This document shows positions 438 through 5,527 of a stretch of 5,527 nt of DNA, one piece after another (position 1 is the first letter of the stretch; the number at the start of each line of letters is the position of its first letter). The stretch comes from Streptosporangiaceae bacterium (GTDB lineage Bacteria; Actinomycetota; Actinomycetes; Streptosporangiales; Streptosporangiaceae), in NCBI GenBank assembly GCA_030042885.1, contig JASHYW010000352.1:1-5527 (forward strand), given 5' to 3'. Position numbers and translations under genes: made by a program. Below the pieces are notes generated by a model. That model did no database searches. It was given only the letters and a program-made list of their open reading frames with translations, and had not been told where the DNA came from.

Positions 438-2522
438 TCAGTGCAGTCCGATTGCGGTCAGGATCAGGTCGATCGGCTTGATGAAGACGAACGGCGCGAC
501 GATCCCGCCGATGCCGTACATGAGCCCGTTGCGCCGCAGGATGGCGGCGCCGTCCAGTGGCCGGAACTTCACCCCGCGTAGCGCGAGCGGGATGAGCGCC
601 GGGATGATGAGGGCGTTGTAGATCACCGCCGACATGATCGCCGTGTGCGGGTTGCCCAGGTGCATGACGTTCAGCACGTGCAGCTTCGGGTACACCACGA
701 CGAACATGGCCGGGACGATCGCGAAGTACTTGGCCACGTCGTTGGCGATGGAGAAGGTGGTCAGCGAGCCGCGGGTGATCAGCAGCTGCTTGGCCACCTC
801 GACGACCTCGATCAGCTTGGTCGGGTTGGAGTCCAGGTCGACCATGTTGCCGGCTTCCTTGGCGGCCTGCGTGCCGGTGTTCATCGCCAGCCCGACATCG
901 GCCTGCGCGAGCGCGGGCGCGTCGTTGGTGCCGTCACCGGTCATCGCCACCATGTGCCCGCCGCGCTGCTCACGCCGGATCAGCGCCAGCTTCTCCTCGG
1001 GCGTCGCCTCGGCCAGGAAGTCGTCTACCCCGGCCTCGGCGGCGATGGCCTTGGCGGTGAGCGGGTTGTCACCGGTGATCATGACCGTCCGGATGCCCAT
1101 GTCGCGCAGCTGCCGGAACCGCTCGGTCATGCCCTGCTTGACCGTGTCCTTCAGGTAGATGACGCCGAGGACGCGCGGCCCGTCCGCCACGACCAGGGGC
1201 GTCCCGCCGGCCTGGGCGATGCGCTCCACGACCGGGGCGAGGTCATCCGGGACGCTGCCGCCCGCCTGCTCGACCCAGCGCCGGATCGAATCGGCGGCGC
1301 CCTTGCGGATCGGCCGTCCGCCGAAATCGATTCCGCTCATCCGCGTCTGGGCCGAGAACGGCACGAGCTCGGCGCCGGTCAGGGCTGGGGGCGGGAGCTT
1401 GTAGCGAGTCTCGGCCAGCTCCACGATGGAGCGGCCCTCGGGTGTCTCATCGGCCATGCTGGACAGCAGCACCGCCTTGGCCAGTTCGTTCTCGCCGACC
1501 CCTGCCACCGGGACGAACTCGTCGGCCATCCGGTTCCCGTAGGTGATGGTTCCGGTCTTGTCCAGCAGCAGCGTCGAGCAGTCCCCGGCGGCCTCGACGG
1601 CCCGCCCGGACATGGCCAGCACGTTCCGCTGCACCATCCGGTCCATGCCGGCGATGCCGATGGCCGACAGCAGGGCGCCTATCGTGGTGGGCGCCAGGCA
1701 GACGAACAGCGCGACCAGGACAGCGGTGGACTGGATGGCCTTGTCGTAGATCGCCATCAGCTGCAACGTGACCACCGCCACCAGCAGGATCAGCGTCAGC
1801 CCCGCGATCAGGATGTCGAGTGCGATTTCGTTCGGCGTCTTCTGCCGGCTCGCCCCCTCGACCAGGGAGATCATGCGGTCGAGGAACGTCTCGCCCGGGT
1901 TGGAGGTGATCTGGACCACGATCCGGTCGGACAGGACGACGGTGCCGCCCGTCACGGCGCTGCGATCACCGCCTGACTCGCGGATCACCGGCGCCGACTC
2001 GCCGGTGATCGCCGACTCGTCGACGACGGCCATCCCCTCGACCACGTCCCCGTCGCCGGGAATGACCTGTCCGGCCGTGACCACGGCCAGGTTGCCCGCC
2101 CGCAGCTGGGCCGACGGGATCTCCTCGGTCGTGCCGTCCGGCTTGAGCAGGCGAGCGAAGGTTTCCTTGCGGCTGCGGCGCAACGTATCGGCCTGGGCCT
2201 TGCCTCTGCCTTCGGCCACCGCCTCGGCGAAGTTGGCGAACAGCACGGTCGCCCACAGCCACAGGGTGACCAGGCCCACGAACACGCTGGGCCGGGCGAT
2301 GAACTCGACCGAGGTGATCACGCTGCCGATCTCGACCACGAACATGACCGGGATGTGAATCATCTTGCGCGGATCGAGCTTGACGAACGCCTCACTGATG
2401 GCGCGACGGAGGATCGATCGCTCGAACAACGAGGTGGCCGGCCGGGTGCGGACCTTCGGCGGCCGTGTTTCCGCGGGCGGTGCCGTGACGCTCCGCCCGG
2501 CCGGAATGCCCTGCTCGCTCAT
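438..2522 (-). CDS. kdpB: KdpB, P-type potassium-transporting ATPase subunit B
   Basis: KdpB is the catalytic P-type ATPase subunit of the K+ uptake pump in the cytoplasmic membrane. The 694 aa are close to the usual length (682 in E. coli). Visible landmarks: first helices at about 55-100 with [10 protein letters not shown]; actuator motif TGES at 173-176 (S176 aligns with the serine whose phosphorylation inhibits the E. coli pump); the APTTIG helix at 277-282; phosphorylation motif DKTGTIT with D321; nucleotide-binding KGAA at 407-410; TGDN at 483-486; TGDGTNDAP at 528-536. D595, K598 and N636 in the C-terminal helices match the E. coli residues of the intramembrane K+ site (D583, K586, N624), as do P278 and T279. 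Two positions differ from the common pattern: I57 where NPVMF usually has Asn, and A277 where IPTT usually has Ile. The ATG at 2522 overlaps the stop of the small upstream ORF (ATGA), and kdpC follows one base after the stop. The gene is intact, but the usual upstream neighbour kdpA is absent. Confidence 0.98.
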
Positions 2523-2677
2523 GTCGTGCCGCCCGATCCGGGCCCCGGTCCGGACGCGTCATCGCCGAGATCGTCGTCGGAGCCGTAGTGGGTGATCATG
2601 TGGTCCAGGACGCGGACCAGCCGAGCGGCCGCCACGAAGAACGCTACGATGGCGGCAATGAGGATGATGTCGGTCAT
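2519..2677 (-). CDS. 52-aa single-pass membrane microprotein in the kdpA position
   Basis: This is a short unrecognised ORF between kdpF and kdpB. It starts at the ATG at 2677-2675, 10 bases after the kdpF stop, and ends at a TGA (2521-2519) that overlaps the kdpB ATG by four bases, so it is probably translated with kdpB. Residues 3-18 ([16 protein letters not shown]) form one hydrophobic helix. It is followed by a basic/amphipathic stretch [10 protein letters not shown] (19-28), an acidic SDDDLGDD (33-40) and a Gly/Pro-rich tail [10 protein letters not shown] (43-52). The likely topology is N-out with a cytosolic tail, because the positive charges follow the helix. No Shine-Dalgarno is evident. 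It does not look like a remnant of KdpA: the KdpA N-terminal pattern, selectivity-filter regions and C-terminus are not visible. Small one-helix proteins beside kdpF may exist in other actinobacteria, but I cannot verify that here. Its role is unknown; its position suggests a Kdp accessory protein. Exact operon fit and coupling argue that it is real. Confidence 0.62.
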
Positions 2678-2687
2678 GACCGGCTTG

Positions 2688-2777
2688 CTAGAAGCGCTCC
2701 GGCATGAACATCGCGATGCCCAGGTAGATGAACACCGCGATCGAGATGGCTAGCAGGATGCCCTCAGCGACAGTCAT
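2688..2777 (-). CDS. kdpF: KdpF, small subunit of the potassium-transporting ATPase
   Basis: KdpF is a hydrophobic peptide of about 29 aa that stabilises the Kdp complex in the membrane. This ORF begins at the ATG at 2777-2775, encodes 29 aa and ends with TAG at 2690-2688. It starts MTVAEGILLAIS, continues as a single membrane helix (about residues 5-24) and ends in PERF, the ending most typical of KdpF. The residues just before PERF are MFM rather than the more usual leucine/arginine pattern. A GAGG at 2793-2790 lies 12 bases before the start, slightly far for a Shine-Dalgarno site. It is the first gene of the leftward operon and is followed by the 52-aa ORF instead of kdpA. Length, ending and position together make the call good despite the small size. 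Confidence 0.87.
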   Translation of the reverse strand: MTVAEGILLAISIAVFIYLGIAMFMPERF

Positions 2778-2935
2778 GGCCCACCAGATCCTCGGTCGCG
2801 TGTATCACGGCAGCTACGAACGCTACACCGGCCCGGGTGACCGGCCTAGGATCCTTACGTTCTCCATGCGGGTCTGCCCTCGTTCCAAGCAACTTCCTTG
2901 TGGCCATGTCCGTTATGTCCTGTCAGAATGAAGGC
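2778..2935. promoter_or_regulatory. Divergent control region between kdpF and the short kdpD
   Basis: These 158 bases separate the divergent starts of kdpF and the KdpD-like gene, so promoters for both units should lie here. Seen directly: GCTAC repeated at 2813-2817 and 2822-2826 (9-bp period), and ACCGGCC repeated at 2827-2833 and 2840-2846 (13-bp period). Short tandem repeats of this kind can be response-regulator sites; KdpE, an OmpR-type regulator, controls kdp operons in many bacteria. On the minus strand GATACA (2806-2801) could be a -10 element for kdpF, without a good -35 match. No known KdpE consensus could be matched, so the operator reading is inference only. No riboswitch fold was recognised; the kdp-linked ydaO (c-di-AMP) type was not seen. 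Confidence 0.5.
2924..2929 (+). promoter_or_regulatory. Possible -10 element for leaderless kdpD transcript
   Basis: CAGAAT lies six bases before the chosen ATG at 2936, the spacing expected when an actinobacterial transcript starts at the A of the start codon. It fits TANNNT only in part and has no good -35 partner (TTGTGG at 2898-2903 gives a 20-base spacer). The only purine-rich stretch, AAGG at 2931-2934, is one base from the ATG, too close for a normal Shine-Dalgarno. This supports, weakly, a leaderless start. Confidence 0.2.
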
Positions 2936-4171
2936 ATGAGCGAGCAGGCGGCTCGCGCACCCGCCAATGCTGACGCTTCCGATGTGGTCGAGGCGGCCGG
3001 TCACTTCCGGATCTACCTGGGCGCGGCCGCAGGCGTGGGCAAGACCTACGCCATGCTCAACGAGGGTCGCCGGCGGCGAGACCGGGGAACCGACGTCGTC
3101 ATCGGGTTCGTCGAGTGTCACGGCCGGCAGCGGACCGAGGACATGATCGACGGGCTGGAAGTCGTGCCCCGCAAGAAGGTGGACTACCGCGGCAGCATCT
3201 TGGAGGAAATGGACCTCGACGCGGTGCTGGCCAGGAAACCCGAGGTCGCGCTGATCGACGAGCTCGCCCATACGAACGTGCCGGGGTCAGGCAAGCACGC
3301 CAAACGGTGGGAGGATGTCCTGGAAGTCCTCGCCGCCGGGATCAACGTCATCACCACCGTCAATATCCAGCACCTGGAGAGCATCGCCGACGAGGTCGAG
3401 CACATGACCGGAGCCCGGGTGCGGGAACGTGTCCCGGACTGGGTGGTGCGCAAGGCGGATCAGATCGAGTTGGTCGACTCCTCACCCGAGCAGCTCCGCC
3501 GCCGCATGCTGCACGGCAACATCTACCCGAAGGAACGGGTCTCGCTGGCCCTGACCAACTTCTTCCGCACCGACAACCTGATCGCGCTGCGGGAGCTCGC
3601 GCTGCGGTTCCTGGCCGACGAGACCGATGAGGAACTACTGGAGCACCTGCGCCGGCACGAGTCGAAGGTTGTGTGGGAGACCTGCGAGCGCGTCATGGTG
3701 GCCGTCACTGCGACTCCCGGGAATGATGGCCTGATGCGACGGGCGGCCCGGATGGCGACCAGGTTCAAGGCAGAACTTGACGTCCTCCACGTCGCCGCCA
3801 GCGACGCCACCCGCCCCGGAGATCGCAAGGTCATCGAGAAGCTCCGCGAGCTGGCCGCCGATCTCGGCGCCCGGTGGCACGAGGTACCAGGCGACGATCC
3901 CTCCCGCGTCATCGCCAAGTTCGCGCAGGAGCATCAGGTCACCCAGATCGTGATCGGGTCCAGTCAGCGGAGCCGGTGGCAGCAGCTCACCGGCGGCGGC
4001 TCGAACGTGACCCGGGTCCTCCGGGAGGCGGGTGCGCTCGGCATCGACGTCCACGTCATTGCCCTCCGAAAGGAGTCTGCCGCCGAGCCGCCCGAAGAGA
4101 CGGCCGTCGGCCGTCCTGGCCTGGTCGAGGTGAGGGCATCCGCTGCGGACAGCTCCGATCTCCTTACCTGA
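2936..4171 (+). CDS. kdpD: Short KdpD-like protein: KdpD ATP-binding domain plus Usp domain, no kinase half
   Basis: Full KdpD is a sensor histidine kinase that controls kdp expression through KdpE. This 411-aa protein holds only the cytoplasmic N-terminal half. Residues 21-230 are the KdpD domain: Walker A GAAAGVGKT (29-37), then GFVECHGR (57-64), DYRG (83-86), DELAHTNVPGS (108-118), KRWEDV (123-128), TTVNIQHLES (140-149) and NLIALRELALR (214-224). Residues 250-378 are a Usp-like domain with VMVAVTATPG (253-262) and the nucleotide-binding pattern IVIGSSQRSRW (338-348) to TGGGSNV (352-358). A short acidic tail follows, then TGA. The DUF4118 membrane helices, GAF, HisKA and HATPase domains are absent, and no remnant of them follows. 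Short KdpDs of this make-up are known from Anabaena and Deinococcus, so it may be functional as it is. The start at 2936 was chosen because homology begins soon after; in-frame ATGs at 2837, 2906 and 2915 would add residues unlike the family. It is transcribed away from kdpFBC. Confidence 0.93.
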   Translation: MSEQAARAPANADASDVVEAAGHFRIYLGAAAGVGKTYAMLNEGRRRRDRGTDVVIGFVECHGRQRTEDMIDGLEVVPRKKVDYRGSILEEMDLDAVLARKPEVALIDELAHTNVPGSGKHAKRWEDVLEVLAAGINVITTVNIQHLESIADEVEHMTGARVRERVPDWVVRKADQIELVDSSPEQLRRRMLHGNIYPKERVSLALTNFFRTDNLIALRELALRFLADETDEELLEHLRRHESKVVWETCERVMVAVTATPGNDGLMRRAARMATRFKAELDVLHVAASDATRPGDRKVIEKLRELAADLGARWHEVPGDDPSRVIAKFAQEHQVTQIVIGSSQRSRWQQLTGGGSNVTRVLREAGALGIDVHVIALRKESAAEPPEETAVGRPGLVEVRASAADSSDLLT

Positions 4172-4390: not shown

Positions 4391-4900
4391 TCACCGCTCC
4401 GGCGGGGTGGCCAGGTCCTTACGGCCGGTCAGTACGAACCACAAGACCAGCCCGCCGACGTCGGCCGGGGCGGCGGGGGTGCCGGGGATCAGGGCCAGCA
4501 CGGCCATGGACAGCAGCGCGGCGACGGCCGCGCGGACCAGCAGGCGCAGCGGCCGGCCGCGGCGGATCCGGGCCGGTAGCCGGCATAGATCGATCAGCGG
4601 CAGCCAGGGCGGCACCGGCGGCGGCAGCACCTCGCCGGGGATGGCAGGCAGCGGCGAGGTATCTGGCTCCCCGGACCGTTCCGCCCGTGCGGCGAGGTCG
4701 GCCCAGGCTTCGCTGCGGCCCCATCCAGTCCGCAGCTCGGCGTAGGCGGCCGACGCGGCGGTGTACCGGGCTAGGTCCCCGCCGTCGGCGCGGTCGGGGT
4801 GGGTGGCGGCGGCGATGGCCCGCCAGGCCGCGCGGACCTGCTCGTCGTCCAGATCCGGGCGGGCGGGCAGGCCGAGCGCCTCGAACGGGTTGGTGGTCAT
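4391..4900 (-). CDS. J-domain protein with C-terminal membrane helices
   Basis: This 169-aa protein has an N-terminal J-like domain. FEALGLPARPDL (6-17) opens it, helix II runs from about 19 to 32, the HPD motif that stimulates Hsp70 (DnaK) ATPase is at 34-36, and helix III runs from about 42 to 56. The middle (75-100) is Pro-rich, ending PPPVPPWLP. A basic segment (109-119, PARIRRGRPLR) precedes a hydrophobic helix at about 119-138 and a second hydrophobic stretch at about 146-158, so the protein is likely membrane-anchored with the J-domain in the cytosol. The G/F region, zinc centre and substrate domains of DnaJ are absent, so this is a type III J-protein. Its ATG (4900-4898) overlaps the stop of the upstream ATPase gene by four bases (ATGA), indicating translational coupling. 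The context suggests it recruits DnaK to a membrane translocation machine, which is inference. The J-domain call itself is good; the partner is unknown. Confidence 0.85.
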   Translation of the reverse strand: MTTNPFEALGLPARPDLDDEQVRAAWRAIAAATHPDRADGGDLARYTAASAAYAELRTGWGRSEAWADLAARAERSGEPDTSPLPAIPGEVLPPPVPPWLPLIDLCRLPARIRRGRPLRLLVRAAVAALLSMAVLALIPGTPAAPADVGGLVLWFVLTGRKDLATPPER

Positions 4901-5527
4901 GGGGCGGCTCGGGGTCCGAAGATGTCATCCAGGCTGGGCGAGGCCGGCCAGGCCGAGGGGGCGGCTTCGCGGCGCGGAACGGGCACCTGCGCCGCCGGCT
5001 CGCTGGTGGGCGAGGGGAGCAGAGTGAGCGGCGACGGCCTGGGCCGGGCGACCTGGACGAAGGTGGCCGCGCCGCGGTGGATGTAGCATGCCTGCCCCAC
5101 GTCGAGGCGGCGGATCAGGTCCGGGTCGGCCGTCCACGCGTGCCGGATGCGGGTGGTGCCTTCGTCCCCCCAGCTGCTGCCGATGAGCCTGTGCGCGGTC
5201 TCCAGCACCCGCCGCCTCCCGGCCAGCTGGCTCAGCGGCTCCGGATGCGGGGTGTGCAGCACGAAGATCCCGCCGTCTGCGGTCGCCGCGATCCGGTACC
5301 GCTCGTCCTCGTCCCGGCCCAGGCCCTGCCAGGACTGGGCGCTGACCTGCACCCCGATGCCCAGCGACCGGCCCCGCTCGTACAGGCTCGAGACCGGCAC
5401 CCGCCCGGAGACCGCGCTGTAGTCGTCGGCGGCCAGCAGCATGGCCCGGGGCTCGCCGTGCAGGCTGGTGGCGGCGTGCGCGGCCAGCTCGGTGATCGCC
5501 ATGGCCTGGGCTTCGGCGACCGACGGC
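4897..5527 (-). CDS. C-terminal part of a HerA/FtsK/TraG-type (type IV secretion-like) ATPase
   Basis: 209 residues are visible; the frame is open through the right edge, so the true start and Walker A are outside, and the ATG at 5502 is unlikely to be the start. Counting from the edge, a Walker B-like strand with double acid, AMLLAADDYSA (28-38), is followed by LYERGRSLGIGVQVSAQSWQG (split at 48-57 and 58-68). This is the arginine-containing helix and the sensor-like strand of RecA-fold DNA-pumping ATPases such as TraG/VirD4 and HerA. A C-terminal part with GQACYIHRG (144-152) and a Pro/Ala-rich, probably disordered tail follows. Similar proteins in actinobacteria are annotated as ATP-binding or TraG-like proteins of conjugative elements (from memory). 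It probably moves DNA or protein at the membrane. It is the upstream, coupled partner of the J-domain gene. Coupling protein, VirB4-like or FtsK-like identity cannot be decided without the N-terminal half. Confidence 0.7.
   Translation of the reverse strand, partial: PSVAEAQAMAITELAAHAATSLHGEPRAMLLAADDYSAVSGRVPVSSLYERGRSLGIGVQVSAQSWQGLGRDEDERYRIAATADGGIFVLHTPHPEPLSQLAGRRRVLETAHRLIGSSWGDEGTTRIRHAWTADPDLIRRLDVGQACYIHRGAATFVQVARPRPSPLTLLPSPTSEPAAQVPVPRREAAPSAWPASPSLDDIFGPRAAP

Follow-up and report, generated by a model that had tools for sequence, protein, structure and literature searches.

Gene content of the locus

The window, by which we mean the whole stretch of DNA analysed here, is apparently an entire contig of 5,527 bases whose left end falls inside kdpC; in the protein database, the longest contig given for its own ORF52 and KdpB has this same length. 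On its minus strand we find, tightly joined and in this order, kdpF, a small open reading frame that we call ORF52, kdpB, and kdpC; a gene for a short KdpD lies divergently on the plus strand (Table 1). ORF52 and kdpB share four bases (ATGA), and a 10-base gap separates kdpF from ORF52, in agreement with the gene order and tight junctions reported in an earlier note on this DNA. The Pfam scores of KdpC and KdpF are both above their cut-offs (145 aa of kdpC lie in the contig), and the score of kdpF against TIGR02115 is 23.1 bits, under the cut-off of 26.85. Among the matches listed, the best tblastn match of kdpF is at 62% in locus L035. A role as a Kdp K+ importer is predicted for this operon from its sequence.

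Table 1. Coordinates of features in the window and of small open reading frames in canonical kdp operons
Feature	Location	Strand	Description
kdpF	2688-2777	minus	29 aa; PF09604, 35.8 bits (cut-off 21.2)
ORF52	2519-2677	minus	52 aa; ATGA overlap with kdpB
kdpB	438-2522	minus	694 aa; TIGR01497 (NCBIfam), 1015.1 bits (cut-off 527.9)
KdpB codon 246 (E. coli position 232)	1785-1787	minus	Leu, not Phe; aligned to E. coli KdpB
KdpB codon 277 (E. coli position 263)	1692-1694	minus	Ala, not Ile; aligned to E. coli KdpB
kdpC	2-436	minus	first 145 aa, rest beyond contig end; PF02669, 106.3 bits (cut-off 24.1)
short KdpD	2936-4171	plus, divergent	411 aa; KdpD domain and Usp
small hydrophobic ORF before kdpF, L001	258-503		canonical kdp operon
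small hydrophobic ORF before kdpF, L159	4663-4803		canonical kdp operon
small hydrophobic ORF before kdpF, L164	4564-4728		canonical kdp operon
small hydrophobic ORF before kdpF, L165	3766-3993		canonical kdp operon

In the short KdpD, PF02702 (311 bits) and PF00582 (45.8 bits) both score above cut-off; the Pfam scan of this protein revealed no histidine kinase domain and nothing further above cut-off. Its score against the NCBIfam model NF038185 is 385.1 bits, under the cut-off of 550, and its identity to plasmid proteins is <60% in 440 out of 440 records. The available part of one report describes phosphorylation of KdpB Ser162 by the KdpD domain, and a response of the short Deinococcus form to c-di-AMP (PMC11018627).

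Two genes at the right end of the window (4391-5526, minus strand) overlap each other and show no clear connection with kdp. One codes for a small protein whose DnaJ match stays below threshold, and it overlaps the end of the other, which resembles the gene of a conjugation-type ATPase. The latter resemblance was judged by eye, no family scoring above cut-off, and against plasmids the gene gave weak matches in two records; the kdp genes may thus have a mobile element as their neighbour. A search of the window against Rfam returned nothing at the gathering thresholds, and no promoter- or terminator-like sites were found in 2450-3000.

Absence of kdpA and its position in related loci

There is no kdpA in the 5,527-base contig, in which kdpB is the sole open reading frame longer than 450 aa. 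Eleven KdpA queries (the ten of alignment A2 and one from Streptomyces orinoci, locus L002) gave only chance-level tblastn matches against the window (the best covers 30 residues and scores 23.5 bits, E 0.079). Searching the window's 115 stop-to-stop frames with a KdpA profile gave nothing at E ≤ 10. By open reading frame, tblastn, and profile alike, kdpA is therefore missing between kdpF and kdpB, as had been claimed. Around 2767-2892 on the plus strand, a short piece from the N terminus of KdpA aligns for five of the 11 queries, which are related to one another. The E values of 2.1-4.2 are at chance level, and the KdpA profile misses this stretch.

We collected KdpB loci from the best 80 of at least 590 relatives in genome contigs and from further genomes, with wider regions added; 140 distinct loci remained after removal of duplicates. 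Five of these (L003, L101, L135, L155, and L176) end too near kdpB for the position of kdpA to be judged. In the search of related genomes that the earlier note had proposed, all 135 distinct loci that extend 500 nt or more upstream have kdpA no more than 2.5 kb upstream of kdpB, a sample that represents relatives of the window's KdpB, not all bacteria, and includes none from the window's own KdpB clade. A kdp order without kdpA between kdpF and kdpB is rare.

The junction of kdpA with kdpB could be read in 133 distinct loci. In 48 of them kdpB could start within an ATGA-type overlap, in 32 the two genes share a single base, and in 53 kdpB begins after the kdpA stop. We considered the ATGA overlap as a marker of the ORF52-kdpB junction in other members of the clade, and rejected it, since the same overlap joins kdpA to kdpB in those 48 loci.

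Absence from the contig need not mean loss. It is quite conceivable, although we would put it somewhat below an even chance, that kdpA was moved and now lies either in another kdp operon of the genome or downstream of kdpC, past the end of the contig; KdpFABC would then be normal, and the changes in KdpB described below would tune its gate. The contig does end inside kdpC, and other gene orders exist: L077 (5618-10070, a Solirubrobacterales MAG), one of the 135, has kdpA-kdpC-kdpB, and among the 140 loci it alone has kdpB separated from the kdpA match by >300 nt. Some genomes also have two KdpB matches each (G635, G657, G682, and G687). A point on the other side comes from contig sizes. The ORF52 and KdpB match lists have five sizes in common (20,624, 9,726, 7,035, 7,016, and 6,858 bases), suggesting contigs that carry both genes, whereas the 120 best of 8,000 scored KdpA share none with either list, and the size for one ORF52 homologue, P0042, was compared by eye and recurs in neither of the other lists; this is a weak argument, as the clade's KdpA may be absent from those 120.

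A small open reading frame associated with kdp operons

ORF52 has one hydrophobic stretch near its N terminus, as judged by eye, and no family in Pfam or NCBIfam reaches its cut-off for this protein. It has 51 homologues besides itself, with E values from 1.5e-13 to 6.4e-5, and must on that account be a real family and more than a chance reading frame. In their alignment (A1, 51 rows), V11-V15 and V21-D25 are invariant. In one homologue (P0012), KdpF is fused to the ORF52 relative in a single protein of 85 aa, so the order kdpF-then-ORF52 is not private to this contig.

More distant relatives of ORF52 were detected by tblastn near other kdp genes: in L001 (36%) and in five of 20 regions (L152, L153, L158, L159, and L162, the last being a wider region of L094). 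ORF52-like reading frames were recognised by eye in L157, L164, and L165 as well. We took matches in L161, L050, L059, L074, L096, L097, and L098 as chance, all except that in L161 being short. Wherever kdpF is readable, the small reading frame precedes kdpF, which is followed by kdpA, with an ATGA overlap in L001, L159, L164, and L165. Because these relatives precede kdpF in canonical operons, the small reading frame is, as far as sequence comparison can tell, an old member of kdp operons. The window looks as if the kdpF-kdpA stretch between ORF52 and kdpB had gone and a kdpF had been placed in front.

Weak matches to ORF52 (E 0.003-0.008) occur in four of 298 whole genomes of one order, and none in 396 genomes drawn from the phylum; the kdpF-ORF52 stretch has no match in plasmids, and neither ORF52 nor KdpB has a relative in the viral contigs searched.

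These observations bear on another explanation, namely that an assembly error or a deletion private to this strain removed kdpA, and that the normal operon of the species has kdpA between ORF52 and kdpB. The evidence is a single contig of 5,527 bases, and, given that kdpA and kdpB can themselves be joined through ATGA (48 of 133 loci), a seamless deletion between two such junctions is possible. The junction is nevertheless a seamless ATGA with both genes intact, kdpF-then-ORF52 recurs in another contig as the fused P0012, and such an accident would not explain the clade-wide Leu232 reported in the next section. We regard this explanation as improbable.

Residue changes in KdpB

To the window's KdpB we assigned a clade consisting of its 120 best homologues, itself included, the others being 83-91% identical to it; members were picked from the top of the list and not by motif. 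They were compared with 134 nonredundant KdpB sequences from the loci (of 153 long enough, after removal of duplicates and contained sequences), in an alignment referred to and numbered by E. coli KdpB (6hra_B).

Counting changes fixed in a group at columns with ≥97% conservation among the remaining sequences, we find six in 288 columns for the window's clade and none in the 265-284 columns available for each of four control clades. The controls comprise 21, 32, 49, and 12 rows (114 of the 134), each row being placed with a representative to which it is ≥74% identical. Any control more diverse than the window's clade has a lower chance of fixed changes, and we take the Streptomyces-like group of 49 as the fairest control. 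Position 232 is Leu in 119 clade members, the window included, and Ile in one, compared with Phe in 134 out of 134 others. Position 263 is Ala throughout the clade and in the window (120/120; others Ile 132, Ala 1, Ser 1). The remaining changes are at 565 (Ala 119/120; others Gly 134/134), 623 (Tyr 120/120; others Phe 133, Tyr 1), 225 (Ile 120/120; others Leu 131, Ile 3), and 533 (Leu 115/120; others Val 130, Leu 3, Ile 1). Positions 225, 232, 263, and 623 are altered jointly in 119 of the 120 clade proteins, and neither Phe232Leu nor Gly565Ala occurs in any of the 134 others.

Positions 225 and 232 are located in M3 and position 263 in M4, and 623 is beside the K+ ligand Asn624; to judge from their neighbours, 225 and 623 probably matter for the ion path. 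In the part of PMC8385062 available, Phe232 of E. coli (TM3) is described as a tunnel constriction at the KdpA/KdpB interface that controls K+ entry, and the F232I mutant as keeping K+-coupled ATPase activity while transport is ∼80% lower. Relocation of kdpA would leave unexplained why this gate, which is Phe in every one of the 134 other proteins, has changed across a whole clade.

Of the six changed columns, two are residues named in the literature, against 16 of 282 (P = 0.048, weakly significant), and a test of membrane location is not significant (4/6 vs. 76/282, P = 0.052); given these values, our claim rests on the individual residues and not on either test. A hand-picked residue set (4/6 vs. 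18/282) was partly chosen after the result had been seen and is not used as evidence. Among the others, a departure at a literature-named residue occurs in only three of 134 proteins (L156 and L135 at 263, L067 at 228), and a single KdpB departs at a median of one near-invariant column (maximum 20).

The Ile263Ala change is also present in L156, which has kdpA and keeps Phe232, so Ile263Ala alone does not signify loss of KdpA. The KdpB of this locus (genome G734) falls close to the window's clade in the tree, and its KdpA is divergent, with 56% identity to that of L001 compared with 62-68% for the other eight of A2.

Outside the altered positions the protein is well preserved. Asp307, Ser162, Pro264, Thr265, Asp583, Lys586, Asn624, and Thr75 are unchanged in all 120 clade proteins and in the window. 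The earlier statement that KdpB keeps all catalytic motifs and K+-site residues thus stands for the catalytic and K+-liganding residues, and fails for the gate, where Phe232 has become Leu and Ile263 Ala. The clade as a whole conserves 273 of the 288 columns conserved in the others, and its KdpB for this reason looks functional.

Residues that face KdpA are also largely kept. Asp300, Gly510, and Arg651 are retained in 120/120 clade proteins; Asp302 is Ser in the clade, but is Asp in just 14 of the 134 others. In the portions of the two reports at hand, salt bridges connect Asp300, Asp302, and Gly510 with KdpA (PMC6255902), and Arg651 is part of a cardiolipin site between subunits (PMC8385062). 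The first 120 aa of KdpC include 15 columns with ≥90% conservation across 138 other KdpC proteins, and the window's protein keeps all 15. The conservation of KdpC and of the KdpA-facing residues is what would be expected if KdpA were still present in trans, and favours a moved kdpA.

The same data speak to a third possibility, that the kdp locus is in an early stage of decay. kdpA is essential in known Kdp pumps, and its loss could be read as a first step of this kind. The window's KdpB, however, departs at seven near-invariant columns against a clade median of eight, none of the named catalytic residues has changed, the visible part of KdpC is intact, and the reading frames are uninterrupted. 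The locus accordingly appears not to be decaying, as the earlier note had also judged from the motifs of KdpB, an intact-looking kdpC, and the tight junctions, and we consider early decay highly improbable.

Relatives of the locus and its mixed affinities

Among the matches listed, the nearest KdpB sequences are 73% (L001), 75% (G749), and 76% (G758, residues 78-693) identical to the window's, and the nearest KdpC is at 62% in L152, the same operon type as that of KdpB. The nearest KdpD matches listed are at 74% in L057 and, over residues 13-155, at 78% in L041. The loci nearest in KdpF and KdpD (L035, L057, and L041) have KdpB proteins only 67-68% identical to the window's, and L035 and L057 lie elsewhere in the tree. 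The locus thus seems to be of mosaic origin, with kdpF and kdpD most like the genes of one operon type and kdpB and kdpC most like those of another. Such a mixture makes a second operon conceivable, and with it a kdpA encoded there.

A quick tree was built from 95 rows, with 20 taken from the 120 clade proteins and 75 from the 134 others. In it the clade forms one branch with 100% support; its neighbours G734, G282, and G001 join at 93%, below the tool's 95% mark. The label Acidimicrobiia-like rests on L001, which is labelled Acidimicrobiaceae, and on genome draws from that class. One of the 120 clade proteins (P0164) is named as coming from an Acidimicrobiales MAG. We found no genome of the window's KdpB clade across 1,916 genomes searched, repeats counted; KdpB searches in eight overlapping draws (396, 8, 32, 345, 14, 2, 58, and 355 genomes) gave 76% at best and no clade member. 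In plasmids, the best KdpB among the matches listed is 69% identical.

A proposed Kdp pump with a remodelled ion entry

The reading we prefer, to which we give a probability of roughly 45%, is that the window carries an intact-looking kdpF-ORF52-kdpB-kdpC operon without kdpA in place, whose ion entry has been remodelled such that the cation reaches its site without the KdpA tunnel. The changes Phe232 to Leu, Leu225 to Ile, Ile263 to Ala, and Phe623 to Tyr would represent a rebuilding of the entry that normally receives K+ from KdpA. KdpB, KdpC, and KdpF, possibly with ORF52, would run the usual P-type cycle. The cation would bind at the conserved canonical site (Pro264, Thr265, Asp583, Lys586, and Asn624), arriving by an altered path without the KdpA tunnel and the Phe gate. 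As in other Kdp systems, the neighbouring short KdpD might switch the pump off by phosphorylating Ser162. KdpA would be absent from the complex, and ORF52 a possible partner within it.

A wider and more tentative version is that the whole clade, with at least 120 database members, has dispensed with KdpA: KdpB, KdpC, KdpF, and ORF52 may move a cation through the membrane domain of KdpB, with Leu232 and further changes around the canonical site. Points in favour of function without KdpA are the lack of kdpA in the contig as opposed to its presence in 135 of 135 other loci, the clade-wide Leu232 together with the absence of fixed changes in the control clades, and a KdpC intact where seen. Several points stand against it. 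The absence of kdpA is documented in a single contig, for one of the 120 clade members. Asp300, Gly510, and Arg651, which in E. coli touch KdpA or the inter-subunit lipid, are kept throughout the clade, and KdpC, which is close to the filter of KdpA, is unchanged where seen. Ile263Ala occurs in L156 alongside kdpA, and Leu225Ile in three of 134 others.

Two readings come out nearly even in our judgement: a variant that works without KdpA, and a pump with a retuned gate whose KdpA is encoded at another place in the genome. The former is favoured by the gate change, and the latter by the conservation of KdpC and of the residues facing KdpA. The earlier note had offered three options: kdpA elsewhere, another partner, or a precise deletion. 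The contig by itself proves none of them, and the clade-wide loss of Phe232 lends support to altered partnering.

KdpFABC is the textbook channel-pump chimera, in which KdpA supplies both selectivity and the entry path. A natural KdpB clade with a changed interface gate is therefore a ready-made experiment on how KdpA hands ions over to KdpB. Should KdpA prove to be absent, it would also be one on what KdpB can do alone. The six named residues make remodelling of the entry directly testable in the E. coli complex. In the titles and abstract openings of openly licensed literature, we found no description of a kdp operon that lacks kdpA, of a stand-alone KdpB, or of a KdpB clade with a rebuilt entry; the part of PMC10654040 available describes the four-subunit complex only. 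Whichever of the two main readings holds, a KdpB clade whose ion entry has been rebuilt is new to us.

Comparison with known systems

The closest well-characterised counterpart of the predicted pump is E. coli KdpFABC, the P1A-type K+-importing ATPase. The window shares with it the catalytic and K+-site residues of KdpB, KdpC, KdpF, and the Ser162 of the TGES motif, and differs in having no kdpA in the contig, Leu in place of the Phe232 gate, Ala in place of Ile263, and the additional ORF52 between kdpF and kdpB.

In gene content the window can be set beside the canonical Acidimicrobiia-type operon, small ORF-kdpF-kdpA-kdpB-kdpC-kdpD (for example L001 and L152, the class being inferred from the label of L001). 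Among the matches listed, the two are alike in KdpB (73% for L001, 75% for G749) and in KdpC (up to 62%, L152), and both have a small hydrophobic reading frame and ATGA overlaps. The canonical operon, however, has kdpA, and its small reading frame precedes kdpF, whereas in the window the small frame follows kdpF and overlaps kdpB. The window's kdpD is divergent and short, unlike the kdpD that follows kdpC in the operon.

The short KdpD has a parallel in the described form that combines a KdpD domain with Usp and is an atypical serine kinase, according to the part of PMC11018627 available. The window's protein has the same set of domains, without the histidine kinase domain, and the target of that system, Ser162, is conserved in the window's KdpB. 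It scores below the NF038185 cut-off, and by likeness of domains it may act as a serine kinase.
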